Source: Lachnospiraceae bacterium (GTDB lineage Bacteria; Bacillota; Clostridia; Lachnospirales; Lachnospiraceae). Taken from it: DNA of 64,000 nucleotides. Numbering within the stretch: the stretch's first letter is position 1; each line of letters opens with the position of its first letter. The stretch spans positions 1 through 64,000 of the forward strand of contig JAFYWF010000004.1 of assembly GCA_017558145.1 (NCBI GenBank), given 5' to 3'. Position numbers and translations under genes: made by a program. Shown here in pieces: positions 38,665 to 64,000 of the stretch. The notes below the pieces were generated by a model. It did no database searches. It saw only the letters and a list, made by a program, of their open reading frames with translations, and had not been told where the DNA came from.

Positions 38665-38872
38665 TTTTCATTCTACTCCTGATTTAAAATATTTTCGTCT
38701 ACTTTAGACTTGTTTTACCGTAACAGGAGTTAAGAAAAAAACAAAGAATTCTTCTGGCACATCTATGACACGATTCGTAACATCCCTATAATTTCTCTTT
38801 TCTGACTTCCTACATCTATAAATTTTCCCTAGCAAGAAAAACTTACTTCCAAAAATATCCTTTTCTTAACAC

Positions 38873-38901
38873 AAAAAAGATGGCCATCTATGACCACCTT
38901 T
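38873..38901 (-). terminator. Terminator of the solute-binding lipoprotein operon
   Basis: On the minus strand AAAGGTGGTCA pairs with TGGCCATCTTT (11 bp, two G-T pairs) and is followed by TTTTG. It lies immediately after the stop of the solute-binding protein gene and closes the unusual ABC/HlyD/MacB operon. Confidence 0.75.
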
Positions 38902-38908
38902 TCTGTCT

Positions 38909-41281
38909 TTATGAATTTTCACTTACATATATTTTTGCTCTACTCTGAATAATCTTCACTACTTCATCTACAGACTTCTGTCCTGAAAAATAACTTTCTG
39001 TTTCCTCTATAATTATATTATTCAAAGCTTCATTATAGGTACATAAGCTATCTAAGCTTGTAATGTAATCCAATAATTTTGCTGATTCTTCTTTTGTAAG
39101 AGGCTGTACCGGTACTTCAACTCCACCAACAAAGAAAGAATCCTCGTATTCATATTTATTACCTTCTTCATCAATAGTATAAGGCTTTTCCCAGGATTTT
39201 TCTTCCAACTTTTTCATACTGCTTATTCTCACCGGAAAATCATATCCTAAATTATCCTGATATTCTTCTGCCAAAAAGCTTTTCACAAATTCCCAAGCAG
39301 CATCTTGATTTTTACTCAAAGCACTGATTGCCATAGTCTTATTAATATTTAAACATCCACCCATACCCTCTTCTACCGGGAATCCGATATAAGTTATATC
39401 TTCTCCAAAGGTACCTTGTTTTGCATAAGCATAATCTCTAAATCCTGAAAGATACTGTAGATTTAAAATCGTTTTGCCATTTCTATACTGTGCTTCCATT
39501 TCTGCCCAATAGGTTTCATCATCAATAACTGCAGAATAGTCAATTTCTCTTGGTAAAGAATTCGCATATTCCAATATCTTTTTAAATCCATCGGTGTCAA
39601 AATAGCATTCTCCTTTATCCCAATCTACATACTTCTGACCACAAATCCACATTGTATAATACATAAAATTAGAAGATGTCATTTCACTTAATAACTGAGT
39701 TCCTTCCGGTTTTGTTGCTAACAGAGCCAATGCTTCATCCATGGTCCAACCTGGTTCTTCTCCCACATCTGCTGTTTTTGCTGCAAAAGAAGTTACACTA
39801 AAAGAAGGTGCAATACGATACAATTCATCTCCTGTAGACAATGCATCTAATACATTTTCCAAAAGGTCATCTTTTTTCAACTGACTGTCATTTTCTAAAA
39901 ATTCATTTAAATTAGCAAATACACCTTTGGCAATATAACTTTCTACCGGCATCTGACTATTTAATAACATAATATCCGGTACCTCTCCGGAAATAATATC
40001 TGTATTTAAACGTGTCATCCCTTGAGTATAATCATCCATAGTATCATACGTTGCATAATCACGAACATAAATTTTATATTGATCACTACTCTTATTAAAC
40101 TCTACTAACTTTTGTTTTACCTCTTGATCCAGGTAATAACATCCTAACGTCAATTCTGTTTTATCCACAACTTCTTCTGCCGGTACTTTTTCAAATTTAG
40201 ATAATTGTACCCCTTCATTATCATAATACAATGCAACAAAGGTATTTTTATCCAAAAAGCTAAATTGATATATATAATTGCTGGCAAAATCAGAAGAAAT
40301 ATAATCCATTACCTTTGTCAGTTCTGTATCTCCGATATTATATCCATAAATTCCGTATTCATCACCTAAGTAGAGATCATAATGCAAGCCACTTATAATC
40401 TGGTAGCTATAATAATTATAATTTGCTGGTAAAAGAGTTTTTGTACCATAATTTCCTCGTTGAATATCTAGCGTTTGAATACTTACTCCACTACCTTCAA
40501 AAGATAACACTGCAATTTTATCATCACGAATACGAAGTAATTTAGATTCATCTACATTTAATTTTTCAATCATTTTAACAGGATTCCCCTGTTGGTCATA
40601 AACTTCGATTCCTCTGCTGGTATCTACAATAAGCTGCTTCTTATCATCGCATTGCAGAGAACTAACATAAAAATATTCATCTTCCGTTATATTTTCATTT
40701 AGCTGAATTTTCCAAAGTTCATTCCCGTCCGGTCCATAACATTCCAAATAAACTTTTTCTTTATCATCCTCCTCTTCATACGAAGGATATTTGTACATGA
40801 TGGAATATATATTTCCCTCTTCATCTGCTGTAAAGTATCCCCCTGAATTATCAAGACTTAACTGTTTTTCCACTTGGCTCACTACAGTACCATCCGATGC
40901 ATATCCTGTAATAGTACGGATGGTTAAAAGTTCCGAATTTATTTCTTCCTCTATAAGAACATCTTCCGTAGTTTCTTCCTTCTCTACCTCCGCTGTTTTC
41001 TCTTCCTGTTTTACTTCTGAAGAAACATTCACTGCAGTTTGCGTCTCCAATTTGGCCTGTGGTAATTCATTTTCATAACGATATTGCTCCACATATAGCA
41101 CATCACCTACCGTTACAATTTGTGAAACATCATCTTTTATTTCATAAGCATCTTTCATTTCTCTAAAAACTGCATTTTTATTTCTTTTGGAACCTGTTGT
41201 TTCATTTGACTTATTACCACCACAAGCAGATAATAACAATGCCATTACTAATAACATGCTTATAACTCCATTTTTTTTCAT
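38909..41281 (-). CDS. Lipoprotein: propeller-like domain fused to an ABC extracellular solute-binding domain
   Basis: 790 residues from the ATG at 41281 (AAGGAGGAG just upstream). The signal peptide ends at lipobox LLSAC (Cys20). A Glu/Lys-rich linker (about 70-110) leads to repeated beta-strand units (about 115-365; GYASDGTVVSQVEKQLSLDN, LECYGPDGNELWKIQLNENI) that resemble a beta-propeller. Residues about 375-790 form a family 1 solute-binding protein (QKLVEFNKSSDQYKIYVRDY, LNTDIISGEVPDIMLLN, NINKTMAISALSKNQDAAWE). Double the usual length. Last gene of the permease-HlyD-MacB operon, so it is the likely receptor for that transporter. Substrate unknown. Confidence 0.85.
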   Translation of the reverse strand: MKKNGVISMLLVMALLLSACGGNKSNETTGSKRNKNAVFREMKDAYEIKDDVSQIVTVGDVLYVEQYRYENELPQAKLETQTAVNVSSEVKQEEKTAEVEKEETTEDVLIEEEINSELLTIRTITGYASDGTVVSQVEKQLSLDNSGGYFTADEEGNIYSIMYKYPSYEEEDDKEKVYLECYGPDGNELWKIQLNENITEDEYFYVSSLQCDDKKQLIVDTSRGIEVYDQQGNPVKMIEKLNVDESKLLRIRDDKIAVLSFEGSGVSIQTLDIQRGNYGTKTLLPANYNYYSYQIISGLHYDLYLGDEYGIYGYNIGDTELTKVMDYISSDFASNYIYQFSFLDKNTFVALYYDNEGVQLSKFEKVPAEEVVDKTELTLGCYYLDQEVKQKLVEFNKSSDQYKIYVRDYATYDTMDDYTQGMTRLNTDIISGEVPDIMLLNSQMPVESYIAKGVFANLNEFLENDSQLKKDDLLENVLDALSTGDELYRIAPSFSVTSFAAKTADVGEEPGWTMDEALALLATKPEGTQLLSEMTSSNFMYYTMWICGQKYVDWDKGECYFDTDGFKKILEYANSLPREIDYSAVIDDETYWAEMEAQYRNGKTILNLQYLSGFRDYAYAKQGTFGEDITYIGFPVEEGMGGCLNINKTMAISALSKNQDAAWEFVKSFLAEEYQDNLGYDFPVRISSMKKLEEKSWEKPYTIDEEGNKYEYEDSFFVGGVEVPVQPLTKEESAKLLDYITSLDSLCTYNEALNNIIIEETESYFSGQKSVDEVVKIIQSRAKIYVSENS

Positions 41282-41331
41282 TTTCTCCTCCTTCATGCTC
41301 TTGAACTCTTCTTTGAACAATTTGATGCTTC

Positions 41332-42411
41332 CTATTTCTTCGCCACATCATTTTTCTTCTGTACCCGTTTGACACTTTTTTCATACAGACTATCCTGCAC
41401 CCAAACAATCCCCTGTTTTAATGTCCATGTCTTTTTCTTCCACCAGCTTATGATTACTGCCAAGACAAAAATCACAGGATTGATTAAAAGTATTATTTTG
41501 ATACCTAAAAATACAGCAAATATATCTTCATATCCTCTAGCTACATTTTCCCAATATGGATAACTTATTTCTTGGAAAGACATACTGCGAATTCCAAACT
41601 GTTTTATTACCTTATACAACGACAAAACTTGAAATCTACTACTATTTTCTATCAACACAACATTTTCGTTTTTTGTTCCCACTGCTGCCTGTATAGTCGA
41701 TAAAGCAAAATTTCGAATCGGATTAGGCATTACGATTTCATAGCTAAATCCACCTGTGGCTATCCCATAATTCTCCAAACTTTCTAACGAAAGAAAACAA
41801 ATAGGCTTTTCCAATCCGGCTGCCTCATACATATGTCCCTTGGGTCTTTCAATTACTCCCGTAATAAAATGTGGTACCTGACCAATCATAATCTGCATCC
41901 CTGTCACGTCAGAAGACCCAAACAATTGCCAAGCCGTTTCCTTATCAATGACAACCCCATCCTGCATCATGCTATCTTCCCGAAACAAACTGCCTGATAG
42001 AATTTTTTGTGGATGAAATTGAAAAAATTCTCCACCTACGCCAATAGCTTTTACTTCCATAGTAGCCCTTTCAGAACGTAGTGTAACTTTTCCACTTCTA
42101 CTCATAGCATCAATCCATAGTCTGGCATTTTCCTTTTCTACGGTAATTGACGCCTGTTGCAATGCGTTATGGACGCTTTGTCGGATTGTCCTAAAATAGT
42201 CTATATTCTCTACTTCCTCTTTTGAAAAAAACACACTAACCTGAGCTACATCTCCTTGTTTTGACCAACGCTCTGCCATTTGCTGATCATAGAGTTTTTT
42301 TTGCATTGTATGCTCTACTAGAAAAAGTCCACCAATAAACACAAGACAAAGCACGGTGATCATGCTCCCAATGAGCCATGTTACCGAGATATTCACTGGT
42401 AATTTTTTCAA
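41332..42411 (-). CDS. MacB periplasmic-core-domain membrane protein lacking FtsX helices
   Basis: 359 residues with a TTG start (complement of 42409-42411) after AGGTGAAG. One membrane segment (about 10-30, VTWLIGSMITVLCLVFIGGLF), then a MacB-type extracytoplasmic core (about 40-285; KILSGSLFREDSMMQDGVVI, DKETAWQLFGSSDVTGMQIM), then one membrane segment (about 295-325) and a basic tail. Normal MacB permeases have three further helices forming the FtsX domain. Only one is present. It may form a coupling piece with the HlyD protein encoded just upstream. Confidence 0.8.
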   Translation of the reverse strand: MKKLPVNISVTWLIGSMITVLCLVFIGGLFLVEHTMQKKLYDQQMAERWSKQGDVAQVSVFFSKEEVENIDYFRTIRQSVHNALQQASITVEKENARLWIDAMSRSGKVTLRSERATMEVKAIGVGGEFFQFHPQKILSGSLFREDSMMQDGVVIDKETAWQLFGSSDVTGMQIMIGQVPHFITGVIERPKGHMYEAAGLEKPICFLSLESLENYGIATGGFSYEIVMPNPIRNFALSTIQAAVGTKNENVVLIENSSRFQVLSLYKVIKQFGIRSMSFQEISYPYWENVARGYEDIFAVFLGIKIILLINPVIFVLAVIISWWKKKTWTLKQGIVWVQDSLYEKSVKRVQKKNDVAKK

Positions 42412-42513
42412 CGTGCTTCACCTGCCTTTCCGCCTATTTTTCACAAAAAACGTGTTCTCAATTCTCTATTTTATCGTCTAACATTATAAGGTTGCATTAT
42501 TACTTATCATAAA

Positions 42514-44439
42514 TTAGTTTTCAGACAAACGAACCTGTTTTCCTGCTTCTACCGGTTGTGTTGTAGTTGTAATTACATATTCATAGCCATAGAGGGGAGC
42601 ATTAATAGCTGTTTTATTATCATCTGCTCCTAATACTTCTACATCTACACGTGTCGCTATATAACGATTCCCCAGGGGTGAGTTTTTAGCTTCCACAAGA
42701 AGAATAAACTTACCATTATTGTCTTCCCTAATAGCACTATTGGGTACCAATAAATCATAATTGGCACTTCTTTGTCCTATAGAAAGACTTAACGATTGTC
42801 CTGCCTGCACATCCCCTATTACATCAAATACTAATAGTTTTTTTTCTCCATTGCTTTCCGGATCCGGACGAATCCCCACTAAAGTAGCTGTAATATCACT
42901 ATAGTACCAGGAATTTTGAATCTCCGCCGCATCTCCTACCTTCACTTTTTTCGCTTGTTCCGGTGTTACAGAAAAACTCATGCTAAATCCTTTTCCTTCC
43001 GGTTGCATTACTGCCAATTCTTCATTTGGAGTAATGTTTTCTCCGGCAATCTTATAAAGATTGGTAATGGTTCCTGCAATGGGGGCTGTAATAGTTGCCC
43101 CAACAGCATTTTCTTTTAATTTCGCAATTTTTTCTCTCTGTTCACGAATAATACTGTTTTGGTTACCAAGATTTAACTCACTACTAATATCGGTAAGAAG
43201 CTGTGTAAGTTCTTCTTGTGCCGTTTTTAATGAACTTTCTGCCTCTATTTTTTGTAACTGAAGACTTTCTACTTGTTTTTTTGTGTCTCCTTCATTATGA
43301 TTCATATCACTTTGTATTGCATTTACCTTTGCCTGACATTCATTCACATAATTAGAAGCACTAATAACTGCTGCCTGTAAACCGGCAAGCTGCGCATTTG
43401 CACTCACAATCGTATTATATTTATTCACTGCAGTTTCATATTCTATTTCTGATGCCAATATCTGTTCATATTTTTTCTGATATTCATGCATGGCTGTTGC
43501 CAAGTCACTTTTCACTGTAGAATTATTATTTCCCGCACCATTCTGCTCCGGTATCTGCACATACAACTTATCAATTGTTGCAATATACTCGTTAATATTA
43601 TTGATATCATCATAACCCTTCACTGCTTCTGCCAATGCTTCTGTGACTCCTGAGTTATTAGCTGCAGTAACTGCTGTCTGCAATGTTGTTTTTACCACAT
43701 CAAATTCGGATTTTTCTCTATTAAAAATAGCTTCTTTATCATATTTTGCAGTTGTAGCCGCAGTAATATCTCCCTTACTATCTGCTTTGGCAGCATCTAA
43801 TTGTCCTTCCACCTCAGATAACTTCTTTTTTGCATTCTCCAATTCCAATGTTGCTCTATCATAAGAATTTTTCTTATCTATGGCAGTACTGGTAGAACCT
43901 TGTGTAATTGCAATCTGCTTTTCAAGGCTTTCCACTGTAGCCTCTAGACTCTCCACCTTCTGTTTTGCCATATGAATCTTATTCTGGTATTCCTGATTGC
44001 TGGAAACATTTCCACCCTGAATATTTTGATAAGATTGTTCTGAAACCTCTCCTTTTAAAAGTGTTGTACTATAGGCGAGAATCAAATCATTTAGATCTTT
44101 TTCAGCCTGTTCCAACTCTGCACTATCTTCATCCTCCAAGTAAAACAATATCTGGTCTTTTTCTACCACATCCCCCTGTTTTACAGCAACAGATGCAATC
44201 TTACGACTTTCCTGTATGGTAATCTTGTAAGGATCATCAGATACCAGGTTCCCGGTTCCTCGAATCTTTGCCGTAATACTTCCCGGTTCAATCATCGCTG
44301 TTGCCACTTCCGGCAAGGAGTAATTCATAATGGTATTAGAAAAAAAGGTTAATACCAACATGATAGACAAAAAGATAATTGCCACATTTTTAACCCATTC
44401 TTTTCGATTTGTTTTCTTTTCTGTATTCATCTCACGCAA
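42514..44439 (-). CDS. HlyD/efflux adaptor protein with long coiled coil
   Basis: 641 residues (TTG at 44439 close to GAGAGGAG; an ATG at 44430 is possible). One N-terminal membrane segment (VAIIFLSIMLVLTFFSNTIM). A split lipoyl/barrel-sandwich domain is seen in KIRGTGNLVSDDPYKITIQE and TITAPIAGTITNLYKIAGEN. Between the two halves lies about 370 residues of coiled coil, longer than most Gram-positive adaptors. A beta-barrel domain follows (about 490-580). Such adaptors normally serve MacB- or RND-type exporters. Here the gene lies between MalG-type importer and MacB-core genes. Confidence 0.85.
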   Translation of the reverse strand: MREMNTEKKTNRKEWVKNVAIIFLSIMLVLTFFSNTIMNYSLPEVATAMIEPGSITAKIRGTGNLVSDDPYKITIQESRKIASVAVKQGDVVEKDQILFYLEDEDSAELEQAEKDLNDLILAYSTTLLKGEVSEQSYQNIQGGNVSSNQEYQNKIHMAKQKVESLEATVESLEKQIAITQGSTSTAIDKKNSYDRATLELENAKKKLSEVEGQLDAAKADSKGDITAATTAKYDKEAIFNREKSEFDVVKTTLQTAVTAANNSGVTEALAEAVKGYDDINNINEYIATIDKLYVQIPEQNGAGNNNSTVKSDLATAMHEYQKKYEQILASEIEYETAVNKYNTIVSANAQLAGLQAAVISASNYVNECQAKVNAIQSDMNHNEGDTKKQVESLQLQKIEAESSLKTAQEELTQLLTDISSELNLGNQNSIIREQREKIAKLKENAVGATITAPIAGTITNLYKIAGENITPNEELAVMQPEGKGFSMSFSVTPEQAKKVKVGDAAEIQNSWYYSDITATLVGIRPDPESNGEKKLLVFDVIGDVQAGQSLSLSIGQRSANYDLLVPNSAIREDNNGKFILLVEAKNSPLGNRYIATRVDVEVLGADDNKTAINAPLYGYEYVITTTTQPVEAGKQVRLSEN

Positions 44440-44486
44440 GCGCTCCTCTCGTGCTCATTTCCAAATCCCAAATACTTGGCAAACTC

Positions 44487-45371
44487 TTATCCTTTCAATC
44501 CGCCTTGATAAGTGATTCCCTCAACCAAATATTCCTCTCCATATAAGAAGACTAACAACGTTGGCACCATATAGATTGTAGCAACCGCAAATGCAAGACC
44601 AATTTCACCTGCATTAATTTTTGATAAAAATACAGACAACGGATGCATTTGCTCCTCGGCCAACATAATCAAAGGCTGTTCTACCATATTCCAAAAATCA
44701 ATAAAAATTAAAATCGCTACACTACATAAGGCTCCTTTACACAAAGGCATACACATATGCATAAAAATCTGCCATTCTCCTGCTCCATCAATTTTCGCAG
44801 CTTCCAAAATGGAAACTGGAATTCTTCTCATATACTTTGTGAGCAAAAAAACTGCATAGGGCGAAAAAATGCCCGGAAGCCAAATAGCCCAATTGCTATC
44901 TAAAATATTTAACCACTTACTAACCAAAAAATTTGGTACTAAAGTTACCTGATATGGCATTAACATTAAAATAATGTATGTAAAAAATATAATTTCTCTT
45001 ACTTTTCCCTGATACCTGGTAAATCCATAAGCTGCCAAACACGCCACTACCAACTGAAATACCACAATCGGAACTACCAAAATAACTGAATTCCAAAACT
45101 TTAATAAATAATCCGGACTTTTTAACAAAACCGTTATATATTGACTAAAAGAAACTTTATCCGGAATAAATTTCAAATTAACCACATCTGATATAAACTT
45201 TTTCGCACCACTATCTGTGGTTTCAAATATCATCCCATAATTGGCCGTAATTTCCGAACTTGCCATAAAAGAATTACACATTGTAAATACAATGGGGGTT
45301 ACAAATAACGCTGCAATCGCAATCAATACAGCCGTCAGGACAATTCGTCCTGTTACATTCTTTTTTTTCAT
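44487..45371 (-). CDS. Carbohydrate ABC transporter permease (MalG type)
   Basis: 294 residues from the ATG at 45371, which has GGGAGAA 5 bases upstream. Six membrane segments. The cytoplasmic EAA loop is ILEAAKIDGAGEWQIFMHMC (near 195), the ATPase docking motif of type I sugar importers. It pairs with the MalF-type permease encoded 89 bp upstream. No ATPase gene is present; in Firmicutes such systems often share an MsmX-type ATPase. Confidence 0.92.
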   Translation of the reverse strand: MKKKNVTGRIVLTAVLIAIAALFVTPIVFTMCNSFMASSEITANYGMIFETTDSGAKKFISDVVNLKFIPDKVSFSQYITVLLKSPDYLLKFWNSVILVVPIVVFQLVVACLAAYGFTRYQGKVREIIFFTYIILMLMPYQVTLVPNFLVSKWLNILDSNWAIWLPGIFSPYAVFLLTKYMRRIPVSILEAAKIDGAGEWQIFMHMCMPLCKGALCSVAILIFIDFWNMVEQPLIMLAEEQMHPLSVFLSKINAGEIGLAFAVATIYMVPTLLVFLYGEEYLVEGITYQGGLKG

Positions 45372-45460
45372 ACTTTCTCCCGGCAAATATTTTTCCTATG
45401 AATTACCTGCTTACTCTTGCCTTCTTTATCAACAAAATATCTCTTTTCTTTGCATTTCTT

Positions 45461-46357
45461 TTACTCACTTAAATCTTTTCCATAATAATTCTCAATGACA
45501 AATAATAATCCAATAATGACAATCATAAACAATGACATAATAATAGCTGCTGCCGACAACTTCTGATAGTCCAGAGAATGAAAAGTATTATTCATAAAAT
45601 GCTGCAACAAATATAAACTATCGTATGGATAATCTCCCGTTAACATATATACTTCTCGAAATACTTTAAAAGAATTAATCAAAGAAAGGATGGTTACAAA
45701 CAAAATGGTAGACGATAGGTATCTTGTTTTTATGTATAAAAAAATCTGCCATCTTTTTGCCTGCTCTATCTCTGCCACTTCAATGATTTCCTTTGGAATA
45801 TTAGCAATAGCAGACATAAATAAAATCATGTTGTATCCCAAGTTTTTCCATAAAAACAAAAATACCAAAACAACCAATGCATAATCCGATTTAAACCAAT
45901 CTATTTGTTTTCCACCCATAAACTTAATAAATTCATTCGCTACACCATTATAATGAAACAATACTTGCCAAATCAACACGACAGATGCAATAGGAACCAT
46001 CATTGGACTAAGCAGCAAAGTTCGAATCTGACTCTTATAAGGAATTTTTGAGTCCAAAGCAAATGCTAATGCCATAGATAATATAACTACCAACGGCACC
46101 GCAATGAAAGAAAACTTAAATGTATTTCCTGCTGCCAAACGAAACGCTGAATTGTTCCAAACATTCATATAATTTTTCAAAAACACAAATCTATGTTGAA
46201 TAGGATTATTTACCATAGAATAAAAAATAACCACAAGAAACGGTAGCACAAAGAAAAGAGATACTCCAAGAACACTGGGAGCTAAAAACAAAGCACTTTT
46301 TCTCTTTATCTTTGCTTCTTCACTATTCTTTTTTTGTCTCTCTCTTCTTTCTTTCAT
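45461..46357 (-). CDS. Sugar ABC transporter permease (MalF type)
   Basis: 298 residues. A basic start (MKERRERQKKNSEEAKIKRK) is followed by six membrane segments. The EAA-like loop is IIEVAEIEQAKRWQIFLYIK, where the usual DGA is EQA, a departure from consensus. First permease of the operon; 118 bp after the GH13 gene. Confidence 0.92.
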   Translation of the reverse strand: MKERRERQKKNSEEAKIKRKSALFLAPSVLGVSLFFVLPFLVVIFYSMVNNPIQHRFVFLKNYMNVWNNSAFRLAAGNTFKFSFIAVPLVVILSMALAFALDSKIPYKSQIRTLLLSPMMVPIASVVLIWQVLFHYNGVANEFIKFMGGKQIDWFKSDYALVVLVFLFLWKNLGYNMILFMSAIANIPKEIIEVAEIEQAKRWQIFLYIKTRYLSSTILFVTILSLINSFKVFREVYMLTGDYPYDSLYLLQHFMNNTFHSLDYQKLSAAAIIMSLFMIVIIGLLFVIENYYGKDLSE

Positions 46358-46475: not shown

Positions 46476-47786
46476 TTATCTTTCGCATTTCCAAAAACGT
46501 GCTGTATATGGCGGAATCTTACTTCCCCCACCAAAATCATGATCATTACCGGTAATCAAATCCACAGCGCGTCCACATTCTGCATTAAAATGTGCATAAA
46601 AATCTTCCCCATCCATATTAATGGCAACCAATACTCGTTCTTCCTCTGTTTTTCTTTCAAAAATACATTGTTTATTGGTTAAAAGAACAGAACGAAAAGC
46701 TCCATAATTTAATGCTTTAGAATGTTTCTTGGCTTCACTTAATTTCCCAATAAATTCTGTTAATTCGTTCCACTCCGGTTTTTCATAACTTAGTCTTAAG
46801 GAAGGATCACCATTATGTTTTTCTCCCTTAGCTCCCCATTCACTGCCATAATATACACAAGGAATTCCTGGCATACCAAAAGCTAATGCATAAATTAATG
46901 GTAAATGCGCCGGATTTTGTAATATGGACGCAATTCTTGACACATCATGATTATCCACGAAAGATAATAAATGTTTCCCTTTATAAAGAGTCCAATCCTC
47001 CGGTCCAAACTGACGCATTAAGGAATGAACAATTTCAAACATGTTGGCACTATTAAAGCTGGAATGTAATCCCTTGTAACATTCATAGTTCGTTGCTGAA
47101 TGAAGCATCCAATCGTTTACTAACACCTTATAATCCCCATGAAGCATTTCTCCCAGCAAAAAGAAATCCTGCTTTTTGGAATCCACAAACTGACGAAGTC
47201 TTCTGACAAAATCATGGTCCAGGCAATATGCCACATCCAATCTGAGACCATCAATATCAAACTCGCTAATCCACATATCAATACTTTCGAATATATATTG
47301 GATTACAGGTTCATGACGAAGGTTCAATTTTACCAAATCATAATTACCTTCCCAACCTTCATAATATAAACCGTCGTTGTATGGTGAATTTCCCCAAAAA
47401 TCAATTTTAAACCAATCCTTATACGAAGAAGCTTCTCTATTTTTCAACACATCTTGAAATCCAAAGAATCCTCTACCGACATGGTTGAATACACCATCTA
47501 AAACTACTTTGATTCCTTCTGCATGTAATTTATTTACCACTTGTTTAAAATCTTCGTTGGTCCCTAATCTGCAATCCACTTTCTGAAAATCTCTGGTGTT
47601 ATATCCATGAGTATCAGATTCAAATAAAGGGGAAAAATAAATAGCATTGCATCCCAATTTTTTAATATGAGGAATCCATTCCTCCACCTTTAAGATTCGA
47701 TGCTCCTGTTGCCCATCATTTTCAAACGGTGCCCCGCAGAATCCCAAGGGATAAATTTGATAAAAAACACTTTCATATGCCCACAT
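46476..47786 (-). CDS. GH13 alpha-amylase-family glycosidase (cyclomaltodextrinase-like)
   Basis: 436 residues, intracellular. GH13 regions: DGVFNHVG (97-104), GLRLDVAYCLD (nucleophile Asp184), LLGEML (acid/base Glu213), FVDNHD (near 287-292). It ends with a short beta domain (PPYTARFWKCER). It lacks the N-domain of neopullulanases and so is shorter than typical members (about 580). It probably hydrolyses imported malto- or cyclo-oligosaccharides. First gene upstream of the ABC/HlyD/MacB operon; ATG preceded by AAAGGAG. Confidence 0.9.
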   Translation of the reverse strand: MWAYESVFYQIYPLGFCGAPFENDGQQEHRILKVEEWIPHIKKLGCNAIYFSPLFESDTHGYNTRDFQKVDCRLGTNEDFKQVVNKLHAEGIKVVLDGVFNHVGRGFFGFQDVLKNREASSYKDWFKIDFWGNSPYNDGLYYEGWEGNYDLVKLNLRHEPVIQYIFESIDMWISEFDIDGLRLDVAYCLDHDFVRRLRQFVDSKKQDFFLLGEMLHGDYKVLVNDWMLHSATNYECYKGLHSSFNSANMFEIVHSLMRQFGPEDWTLYKGKHLLSFVDNHDVSRIASILQNPAHLPLIYALAFGMPGIPCVYYGSEWGAKGEKHNGDPSLRLSYEKPEWNELTEFIGKLSEAKKHSKALNYGAFRSVLLTNKQCIFERKTEEERVLVAINMDGEDFYAHFNAECGRAVDLITGNDHDFGGGSKIPPYTARFWKCER

Positions 47787-60586: not shown

Positions 60587-61873
60587 TTATTCGTATCTTA
60601 AAGCTTCGATAGGATCCATTTTTGCAGCTTTGTTTGCCGGATGATATCCAAAAAACACACCAATAAACATAGAAAATGTAAGTGAAATAAGGATACTTGA
60701 AATAGATGGAGTTGCCGGTGCATCCATGAGATTGGCTGCCACACTTCCCATAATGATTCCCAAAATAATACCAATAATTCCTCCAATAATGCAAATCACA
60801 ATTGACTCTACAATAAACTGAAGACGTATGGAACTATTAGGAGCTCCTAATGCTTTTCTGGTACCAATTTCTCTCGTTCTTTCCGTAATGGATACAAGCA
60901 TAATATTCATAACCCCAATACCACCTACCAATAATGCAATTCCTGCAATAATGGAAATTGCCAAGGTAATCGTTGATAACATTTCTGTCATACTTTCTAC
61001 CATACTACTCATGCTATATGCAGATGGTGCAAAATTATTATTCTTTCGATAATAAGCATTAAAATAACTCTCTGTACTTTCTGCAAAGCTATCCGGATCC
61101 ACTCCCGTTTTGGTTACCACAGTAAATTGAGAATAACCACTACTATGATTTGCACTTTGTGCCGCTTTTAAAGGAACATAAACCTCCGTAGTGATATCCT
61201 GTTCAGAAGAAGAGGAAAATCCCATAGCAGACTCTTCATACTCATAGATTCCAACAATTGTACAAGAATAATATTTTTCATTAATATTTGCCTGAAAAAT
61301 ACTTCCCAATGCTTTTTCCTCGTTCCCATCATACATATTGTTTACAACTTTATCTGAAACAATGGCTACCATTTTTCCATCATTGGTTTCTTTTTCTGTA
61401 AAAAATCTTCCCTCTATAAGATTTAAATCATTGGCCAGAAAATACCCCAAACTAACACCACTTAAAGAAATATTAGCATACAACTGATTTTCCGTAATCT
61501 GTCCACTTCCCACATTTTCTTGTACCGATATGGCTGTAATAGAATCGGCATAAGTCTCACAATAATTTTCTACCATTTCTTTTGTAAAATAATCATCTTC
61601 TGTGGCAGTCTTCATTCTTCCCGGTCCACCAAAACTCATTCCTTCCCTAGTAGTCTCCTCTTCTTCTCTTTTTTGCTGAAGTCCTACCGTAATATTGGAG
61701 GCTCCCATAGAGGACATGGTATCAGATACATAAGCAGTAATAGAGTTGCCCACGGTCATAATGGCAATCACAGAAGCAATCCCAATAATAATCCCAAGCA
61801 TGGTAAGGAGTGCTCGCATTTTATTTGCCTTTAAGCTAAACAGCGCCAATCGAATATTTTCATAGATTAACAT
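60587..61873 (-). CDS. MacB-type ABC transporter permease
   Basis: 428 residues. An N-terminal membrane segment (ALLTMLGIIIGIASVIAIMT) is followed by an extracytoplasmic core (about 45-300) and an FtsX domain with three membrane segments containing RTREIGTRKALGAPNSSIRL. This is a complete MacB-like permease, unlike the truncated form at 41332-42411. It overlaps the upstream ATPase gene by 7 bp. Likely exports peptides, antimicrobials or lipoproteins with the HlyD adaptor. Confidence 0.93.
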   Translation of the reverse strand: MLIYENIRLALFSLKANKMRALLTMLGIIIGIASVIAIMTVGNSITAYVSDTMSSMGASNITVGLQQKREEEETTREGMSFGGPGRMKTATEDDYFTKEMVENYCETYADSITAISVQENVGSGQITENQLYANISLSGVSLGYFLANDLNLIEGRFFTEKETNDGKMVAIVSDKVVNNMYDGNEEKALGSIFQANINEKYYSCTIVGIYEYEESAMGFSSSSEQDITTEVYVPLKAAQSANHSSGYSQFTVVTKTGVDPDSFAESTESYFNAYYRKNNNFAPSAYSMSSMVESMTEMLSTITLAISIIAGIALLVGGIGVMNIMLVSITERTREIGTRKALGAPNSSIRLQFIVESIVICIIGGIIGIILGIIMGSVAANLMDAPATPSISSILISLTFSMFIGVFFGYHPANKAAKMDPIEALRYE

Positions 61874-62577
61874 TGTTTTCCACTCCCCTTTCTCTCTCCG
61901 GTAATCAGTCCATCCTTAATTGTAATAATTCGTTCTGTTTCTTCTGCCAACTCCGGCGAATGAGTAATTAAAATAATAGTTTTTCCCTGCTCCTTATGTA
62001 ACTTATGAAATAAATCCATTACCATACGTCCTGTTTCTGAATCCAAGGCTCCGGTAGGTTCATCTGCAAGAATAATGGCCGGATTATTGGCCATGGCTCT
62101 GGCAATGGCTACACGCTGTTTTTGTCCACCGGATAATTCTTCCGGTAGATGCTTTAATCGGTCTTCCATACCTACAATGGTTAATAACTCCTTCGCTCTT
62201 TCTACTCTTTGTTTCCCGTTTACCTTCCCATACAACATAGGCATTTCTACATTTTTCAAAGCATTCGTTTTGGCGATCAAATTATAAGTCTGAAATACAA
62301 AACCAATTTTTTGGTTTCGTATGGCAGAAAGCTGATGGTCCTTTGCTTCAGTAATATTCACATCATCCAAAAAATAAGTTCCTTCTGTAGGTCGATCCAA
62401 AGAACCAATGATATTCATGAGAGTGGATTTTCCGGAACCGGAAGCTCCGACAATGGCTACAAATTCTCCTTCATAAACTTCAATATCAATTCCTTTTAAA
62501 ACTTCTAATTCATTCGGTGTCCCTATATAAAAGCGTTTCTTAATTCCTTTCATATCTATGACTTTTTTCTTTTCCAT
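61867..62577 (-). CDS. LolD/MacB-type ABC ATPase
   Basis: 236 residues. Walker A GASGSGKSTLMNI, Q-loop FVFQTYNLIAKTNAL, signature LSGGQKQRVAIARAMANN, Walker B IILADEPTGALD, H-loop LITHSPELAEE. The start shares one base with the HlyD stop (TAATG) and the end overlaps the permease, so all three proteins are coupled. Confidence 0.96.
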   Translation of the reverse strand: MEKKKVIDMKGIKKRFYIGTPNELEVLKGIDIEVYEGEFVAIVGASGSGKSTLMNIIGSLDRPTEGTYFLDDVNITEAKDHQLSAIRNQKIGFVFQTYNLIAKTNALKNVEMPMLYGKVNGKQRVERAKELLTIVGMEDRLKHLPEELSGGQKQRVAIARAMANNPAIILADEPTGALDSETGRMVMDLFHKLHKEQGKTIILITHSPELAEETERIITIKDGLITGERKGSGKQC

Positions 62578-64000
62578 TAGAAACCTCCCATAGGTCCCTG
62601 ACGCATCATCATCATCTGAATATTTCCACCATTATCATCACTTGTTTTAGGAACCACAACTTCCATTCCTTCTGTTATTTCCTTACTTATGATTTCAATA
62701 TAATAATCGCTTTCTATTCCCTTTTCTACGTACACTTTTCTTGTATTAATATCTACATTTCCCTTAGCGTCATCCGGTTGCTTTTTATCTGTTTTTTTAT
62801 TTCCAATTCCTTGTGGTCTGCTTCCTTCCTCCTGCGAAAATGGCATCTGTGGTCTGTTTCCACTACCTTTTTCGACTCGCATCTGTGGCATGTTTCCAAA
62901 ATCCATTCCTTCAGGCATGTTTTCAAAATCCATCCCTTCCGGCATTTCAGGCATATTCTCAAAATCTATTTCTCCCGGCTTTTCAGGCATATTATCAGGA
63001 TTCATACCTTCCGATAACATTTCTTCTCCTATAGTTTCTGTCTGGTTTTCACCAGATGCATCTACCACTTCTACATAGTATCTGCCACTACCATCTTCCT
63101 GAACTGCCTCATAAGGAACCGTCAATACATTTTCCTTGCTTTCCAAAATAATACTGAGTTTTGCTGTCATATCCATTCTCAACATTTCATTGGGAGTATC
63201 CACAGAAATAATGACAGTATATGTAACTTCATTTCCACTTCCATTTGCTTTGGGAGATACAATTTTTACAGTACCAACTAATTCTTCATCCCCTGTGGCA
63301 TTGGTTTTAATTACAACCTTCTGTCCTTTTGAAATTTTTCCAATATCATATTCATCAATTTGAGCTGTTACTTCAAAAGAACTAATATCATCAATAGTTA
63401 TAATTGCTGTTCCGTTATAAGTATCTCCTTCTGCAATATTTACTGCTGAAATCACACCTGCAAAAGGGGCTTCTACTACACAATCCTCCAATTGCTGCTG
63501 ATATTCTTCTACTTTATCTTCCTCGCTATTTCCACTGCTTAATGCATTTAATTGCGAAGTAGTTAAACTCTCTGTTTTGTTAATTACATTATTTTCAGCA
63601 CTTTTTTCTGTATCCTCTACGGTTCTTTTTTGCTTGTCATAGGACTGTAATTTTGACTGAGAAGTAGATACCGCCTGCTCATATGTTTTTTCCAAACTGC
63701 TTTCATTGGATTTTGCTGTGTTATATTTTGTCTGCCAGGTTTCTACCTCCTTCTTGAGATTTGCAACTTGTTCTTCAGCATTTTTACTATTTTTATATTT
63801 TTCCTGTGTTTTTTTTAATTCATCAAGGATATTATTGGCATCAATATTTCCCTCTCCAAAATTAATGGAAGTCAAATCCTTATCTATAGCAATTTGATCC
63901 ATAGATATACCACTGTCACCGGTAATATAAGTTGCAAGTTCGTTCCTCATTGTTTCAAAATCTGATTCATGTGTTTTTGCTGCATTTGCTATTGCCTGTG
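62577..64000 (-). CDS. HlyD/MacA-type efflux adaptor, 5' end outside the window
   Basis: The open frame continues to the right edge (AIANAAKTHESDFETMRNEL before an internal Met at 63950), so the N-terminus is missing. Seen: coiled coil, lipoyl-type half (VEAPFAGVISAVNIAEGDTY), beta-barrel (IGKISKGQKVVIKTNA), and membrane-proximal domain. A Met/Pro/Glu-rich repeat stretch (encoded at 62880-63005) with EMPEGMDFENMPEGMDFGNM is inserted near the C-terminus. The protein ends in a Met-rich tail (QMMMMRQGPMGGF). Partner of the ATPase and permease downstream. Confidence 0.92.
   Translation of the reverse strand, partial: QAIANAAKTHESDFETMRNELATYITGDSGISMDQIAIDKDLTSINFGEGNIDANNILDELKKTQEKYKNSKNAEEQVANLKKEVETWQTKYNTAKSNESSLEKTYEQAVSTSQSKLQSYDKQKRTVEDTEKSAENNVINKTESLTTSQLNALSSGNSEEDKVEEYQQQLEDCVVEAPFAGVISAVNIAEGDTYNGTAIITIDDISSFEVTAQIDEYDIGKISKGQKVVIKTNATGDEELVGTVKIVSPKANGSGNEVTYTVIISVDTPNEMLRMDMTAKLSIILESKENVLTVPYEAVQEDGSGRYYVEVVDASGENQTETIGEEMLSEGMNPDNMPEKPGEIDFENMPEMPEGMDFENMPEGMDFGNMPQMRVEKGSGNRPQMPFSQEEGSRPQGIGNKKTDKKQPDDAKGNVDINTRKVYVEKGIESDYYIEIISKEITEGMEVVVPKTSDDNGGNIQMMMMRQGPMGGF

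Follow-up and report, generated by a model that had tools for sequence, protein, structure and literature searches.

A conserved importer-type gene set with MacAB-derived parts in Lachnospiraceae and related clostridia

Introduction

Why would the permeases of a sugar importer share an operon with an adaptor and a core protein of the kind found in MacAB pumps? The question is raised by a locus in the window, by which we mean the whole 64,000-nucleotide stretch of Lachnospiraceae bacterium DNA that was analysed (contig JAFYWF010000004.1). Here, open reading frames and Pfam profiles identify five co-directional genes on the minus strand, between positions 38909 and 46357. They encode MalF, MalG, an adaptor, a MacB-like protein and a lipoprotein receptor. 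No importer forming such a hybrid with an adaptor and a MacB part was described in the literature that we searched, which lay mostly outside subscription papers.

One operon carries importer and MacAB-type parts

The operon is listed below in the direction of transcription, together with its upstream neighbour.

46476..47786, minus strand: GH13 alpha-amylase-like enzyme, upstream neighbour outside the conserved unit (Alpha-amylase, 2e-49)
45461..46357, minus strand: MalF-type permease, 298 aa (BPD_transp_1, 4e-15, over the cut-off)
44487..45386, minus strand: MalG-type permease, 299 aa (BPD_transp_1, 4e-12, over the cut-off)
42514..44439, minus strand: MacA/HlyD-type adaptor, 641 aa (HlyD_3, 9e-10, over the cut-off; RND_mfp, 3e-19, below its cut-off)
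41332..42411, minus strand: MacB-like protein (MacB_PCD, 6e-9, over the cut-off)
38909..41320, minus strand: lipoprotein receptor (SBP_bac_1, 3e-15, in the C-terminal half, over the cut-off)
about 38871..38906, minus strand: intrinsic terminator closing the operon (16-bp stem, 4-base loop)

The terminator has a folding energy of −22 kcal/mol, compared with −7.3 for shuffled sequences (z −7.3). By Pfam and fold, the operon has the marks of a type I importer of the MalFGK2 group, namely two BPD_transp_1 permeases and a solute-binding protein. It also has marks of a MacAB pump: a MacA/HlyD adaptor with lipoyl and barrel regions, and a MacB periplasmic core domain. In contrast to this hybrid, the window also contains, at 60587-63950, an ordinary MacA-ATPase-MacB set composed of an adaptor, an ABC ATPase and a permease.

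The gene set is kept together across clostridial families

Related loci were selected by similarity to MalF or MacB and come mostly from metagenome assemblies. Hence, the counts that follow describe these MalF and MacB subfamilies and not all importers. With the MacB-like protein as query, matches were found in 23 of 200 genomes of a family sample. In the 20 neighbourhoods retrieved, the permease and adaptor genes are adjacent wherever the contig extends that far. MalF as query gave 80 named loci, mostly from Lachnospiraceae, with the order MalF-MalG-HlyD-MacB nearly throughout. A class-wide MalF search, with matches in 57 of 391 genomes, extended this order to about a dozen families besides Lachnospiraceae.

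Of 106 distinct loci, 95 have the complete order; the remainder mostly end at a contig edge, and two are MacB-receptor fusions. When loci were filtered for a MalF score of at least 260 bits and three genes of flank, the adaptor and MacB were both present in 112 of 113. The genes are also tightly packed; across the 106 distinct loci the median gap is −4 between MalF and MalG, and again −4 between MacB and the solute-binding protein gene. The set is thus inherited together far beyond chance. The original prediction was of a five-gene run on one strand with a single terminator, whose families should recur together and in order. The reading frames, Pfam matches and hairpin fold bear out the run, and the locus counts agree with the recurrence.

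The single exception among the 113 loci is on a contig labelled Clostridium (L086:1-1061). Here, MalF sits at the contig start, with no MalG, adaptor or MacB downstream; this is possibly an assembly join. Two related MalF loci differ in another way. L229 has neither adaptor nor MacB, and L230 has the adaptor and no MacB. These may be losses or early forms.

Permeases

Compared with homologues from 18 loci, the window MalF is 51-69% identical and the window MalG 57-75% identical. MalG retains a canonical EAA loop (EAAKIDGAGEWQIF). The MalF coupling loop is degenerate, with EVA..EQA...TR replacing EAA..DGA...LP. This loop is canonical in distant members and degenerate in the Lachnospiraceae branch. 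In a tree of MalF proteins, those linked to an adaptor and MacB form one clade (support 99/98). We used the tree for this clade alone, since an unrelated MalF, L034_5485, had taken its label from a neighbouring block.

The adaptor carries a long hairpin of variable length

The adaptor has an N-terminal membrane helix, a split lipoyl domain and a barrel region, and MacA is among its PDB matches. In the window protein, about 345 residues separate the two lipoyl halves in the alignment. At 1.5 Å per residue and with two arms, this gives a hairpin of at most about 26 nm, or less if the coil is broken, as the sequence suggests. In principle, a hairpin of this length might extend deep into a thick wall. 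Across loci, where lengths were likewise taken from the alignment, the span between the lipoyl halves varies about ninefold among species, from 54 to 490 residues. Lachnospiraceae adaptors have a median of 264 and reach the upper limit; distant members go down to the lower. Together with the MalF loop, the helix number of the MacB-like protein and the receptor length, this difference between the Lachnospiraceae branch and distant members reads as stepwise specialisation in a presumed direction.

The MacB-like protein is reduced and lacks an ATPase

An AlphaFold2 model of the window MacB-like protein (pLDDT 85.7) consists of a periplasmic core domain and two membrane helices. Its best PDB matches by Foldseek are MacB, the pneumococcal MacB-like protein 5xu1 and YknZ. 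The four-helix MacB/FtsX permease is absent from the window protein, which also has no ATPase domain. For all other family members, helices were counted by hydropathy scan. Two helices were found in 95 of 102 close relatives, and up to six in distant members. In a phylum sample, full-length members of this family score at least 290 bits and ordinary MacB at most 66 bits. The MacB part thus has two helices here, up to six distantly, and no MacB ATPase; hence, the hybrid system is not a MacAB pump. At one locus (L037:9590-11263) the MacB-like protein continues in frame into HAD-like hydrolase sequence, giving 557 aa in all.

The receptor belongs with the MacB-like protein

The receptor has a lipobox cysteine, Cys33, that is invariant in 26 sequences. 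The frame as listed, from a TTG, probably starts too early, and an ATG at codon 14 (about position 41281) would open the signal peptide. The lipobox is followed by a beta-propeller-like half (residues ~46-385) and a C-terminal solute-binding domain (386-803). Profile searches with the N-terminal half place beta-propellers first (best 4e-7), and the model of the full protein (pLDDT 83.4) has about 24 strands there. The best structural match, CbpC (PDB 7x0o; Z 26.3), comes from a VIA-align comparison spanning the solute-binding half and not the propeller. Used as a single phmmer query, the window receptor gave no match at 1e-5, and CbpC was reached by profile only. Receptor genes number mostly one or two per block, and up to five in some. 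Some distant receptors lack room for a propeller; most Lachnospiraceae receptors are long enough.

Two species encode the MacB-like protein and the receptor in a single open frame. These frames, L076:13854-17135 (1093 residues) and L084:13886-17122 (1078 residues), are 57% identical over 1082 residues. Hence, the two proteins belong together. Each frame retains a lipobox where the two parts meet, and its product may therefore be cleaved into two. Even then, the two parts would be made in equal amounts.

A MalK/MsmX-type ATPase is the likely motor

No ATPase gene lies within any of 110 blocks, the window operon included. The window's genome has one MalK-type ATPase gene, on another contig (L181:6272-7381), and a single such gene is also found in most carrier genomes. 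In L107, L170, L171 and L172, an MsmX-type ATPase gene follows MacB directly on the same strand, and the product is 52-58% identical to the copy in the window's genome. L218 likewise has an MsmX-type gene directly after MacB. In four of these five genomes (G399, G688, G859 and G989), the adjoining MsmX-type gene is the sole MalK-type match. All same-strand ATPases directly after MacB are of the MsmX type, and no MacB-type ATPase was found within the 110 blocks. Two of the adjoining ATPases (L170:10325-11620 and L171:10367-11668) have about 70 additional N-terminal residues in the reading frame as called, probably owing to an over-long start.

MsmX and MsmK ATPases serve several importers in trans (PMC7658222). 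In Clostridium thermocellum, the ATPase Clo1313_2554 drives transporter B from a separate locus (PMC9601137). The type of ATPase found in the relatives therefore speaks for an importer energised in trans. Most likely, the hybrid system takes its drive from a subunit of the MalK/MsmX type, which in the window host would be shared in trans and pair with MalF and MalG. It had been noted beforehand that no ATPase is present. This is correct for the window operon but probably not for the system, which most likely draws on the MalK-type gene elsewhere and, in relatives, on the next gene.

A proposed composite importer

The five-gene set looks like a real, previously undescribed surface machine of more than 100 related clostridia. 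We favour a composite type I ABC importer that has an adaptor and an ATPase-free MacB-like base, with MalK/MsmX-type drive. We give this reading a rough probability of 0.58. Lipoprotein receptors, with propeller and solute-binding domain, would catch ligand outside the membrane. MalF and MalG would form the channel, driven by the MalK/MsmX-type ATPase from its single gene elsewhere in the window host. The MacB-like protein would be a fixed base without an ATPase of its own, and its core domain would hold both the receptor and the adaptor of the HlyD/MacA type. Around the channel mouth would sit this adaptor, which probably forms a ring bearing a long coiled-coil collar. The collar may then create an antechamber, or a conduit toward or through the wall. 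We infer both the physical complex and the inward direction of transport.

The evidence speaks strongly for a conserved machine of the importer type in which parts derived from MacAB are constant. A more ambitious version is doubtful. It would have the same importer working class-wide, with the collar, on its MacB-derived ATPase-free base, as a conduit through the Gram-positive wall that leads from the receptors to MalF and MalG, powered by a shared MalK-type ATPase.

Cargo, neighbouring genes and other explanations

Could the system be something other than a nutrient importer? In one such alternative, an envelope device, MalF, MalG, MsmX and the receptors might act as sensor and motor, and the MacB-like base would transmit their force to the adaptor; its tasks could include wall upkeep or the sensing and removal of wall-active compounds. 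The MacB family has been classed as mechanotransducers (PMC5985334). The CbpC pocket is blocked and the transporter C mutant has no growth defect (PMC9601137). Among our loci, no conserved sugar-enzyme neighbour or further partner gene was found, and neighbours are mostly housekeeping genes. At 8 of 124 loci (L052, L081, L109, L116, L119, L173, L176 and L178), MalF is closely preceded by the gene of a DUF6449 membrane protein, which either overlaps it or is separated from it by no more than 25 bases; in most of them an ABC ATPase and a GntR regulator accompany this gene. The set recalls the ytr wall-stress operon of Bacillus. Its presence would be compatible with an envelope role. However, the GntR module is confined to a few related loci, MalG keeps its canonical EAA loop, the ATPase is of the MalK type, and the presence of several divergent receptors in a block would suit a range of ligands. 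On balance we regard an envelope device as unlikely.

A narrower proposal is that the cargo is alpha-glucan, which the original prediction named as possible, with the upstream GH13 enzyme trimming or using imported malto-oligosaccharides. In the window, the GH13 gene lies 118 bases upstream of the operon on the same strand, and a GH13 gene is also found upstream of five other loci. However, these are the only cases among 125 loci (6 of 125, window counted), so that alpha-glucan cargo is unsupported. Furthermore, the other five enzymes carry Alpha-amylase_N, which is missing from the window enzyme; hence, these seem to be two distinct associations. Also, the receptor is matched best by CbpC and not by a maltodextrin-binding protein. 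We consider this proposal improbable.

A third alternative is that the locus joins two unrelated units, an ordinary sugar importer and a decayed MacAB pump, adjacent by chance or hitch-hiking. In its favour, importers to our knowledge normally lack HlyD and MacB parts, and the window's MacB-like protein is poor in helices and without an ATPase domain. It is nevertheless extremely improbable given 112 of 113 loci, about a dozen further families, gene overlaps and MacB-receptor fusions.

The composite importer is the reading that we carry forward. The multi-part machine first proposed for this locus keeps its conserved unit, its link between MacB and receptor, seen as two fusions, and a hairpin whose length would allow a far reach. 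Its lack of an ATPase most likely does not hold, and its alpha-glucan cargo finds no support. If the composite importer is correct, a large group of gut bacteria has made parts of a well-known export machine into constant parts of an importer. Adaptor proteins would also gain a use in bacteria without an outer membrane. Finally, it would offer a new reading of C. thermocellum transporter C, for which a receptor structure, a strain with an insertion mutation and workable genetic tools already exist.

Comparison with known systems

The receptor encoded at locus L221 is CbpC, since it matches PDB 7x0o without a difference over 437 residues. CbpC is followed by MalF, MalG, the adaptor and the MacB-like protein, and this MalF is in the same clade as that of the window. 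Hence, transporter C is a member of the group, sharing with the window operon the MalF-MalG-adaptor-MacB order and the MalF clade. It differs in that its receptor lacks a propeller, six helices are predicted for the MacB-like protein and an AAA gene lies between receptor and MalF. In addition, its adaptor is read as two overlapping frames (L221:6634-7987), which may be a broken gene, a programmed frameshift or two genes. This adaptor copy may thus be impaired, in which case the missing mutant phenotype shows less. According to PMC9601137, neither ITC nor NMR showed binding of CbpC to any sugar tested, a loop blocks its pocket, and growth of the mutant on glucose, cellobiose and Avicel was normal. 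An earlier study, as cited in PMC9601137 and PMC11212667, reported CbpC binding. The Fig. 1 legend of PMC9601137 names an 'acra' gene among the sugar transporter clusters; the available text contains no discussion of the adaptor and MacB part of transporter C.

MalFGK2-type importers with a shared MsmX or MsmK (PMC7658222) are alike in having two BPD_transp_1 permeases, a solute-binding protein and, in place of a local ATPase, a single MsmX-type gene elsewhere. Unlike them, the hybrid has an adaptor and a MacB core as constant companions, a degenerate MalF coupling loop and a receptor fused to a propeller-like domain. YknWXYZ and the MacAB system of Streptococcus pneumoniae (PMC5985334; PDB 5f9q and 5xu1) share the MacA-family adaptor and the MacB core fold. 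Their permease, by contrast, has four helices, they encode a MacB-type ATPase of their own, and they are considered outward-acting, whereas the hybrid has two helices (up to six distantly), importer-type permeases and no MacB ATPase. Mycobacterial Mce importers are alike in outline, since their importer permeases work with a long tube outside the cytoplasm and with an ATPase that is shared and coded elsewhere; they differ in their protein families, MCE and YrbE, and in their lipid cargo.
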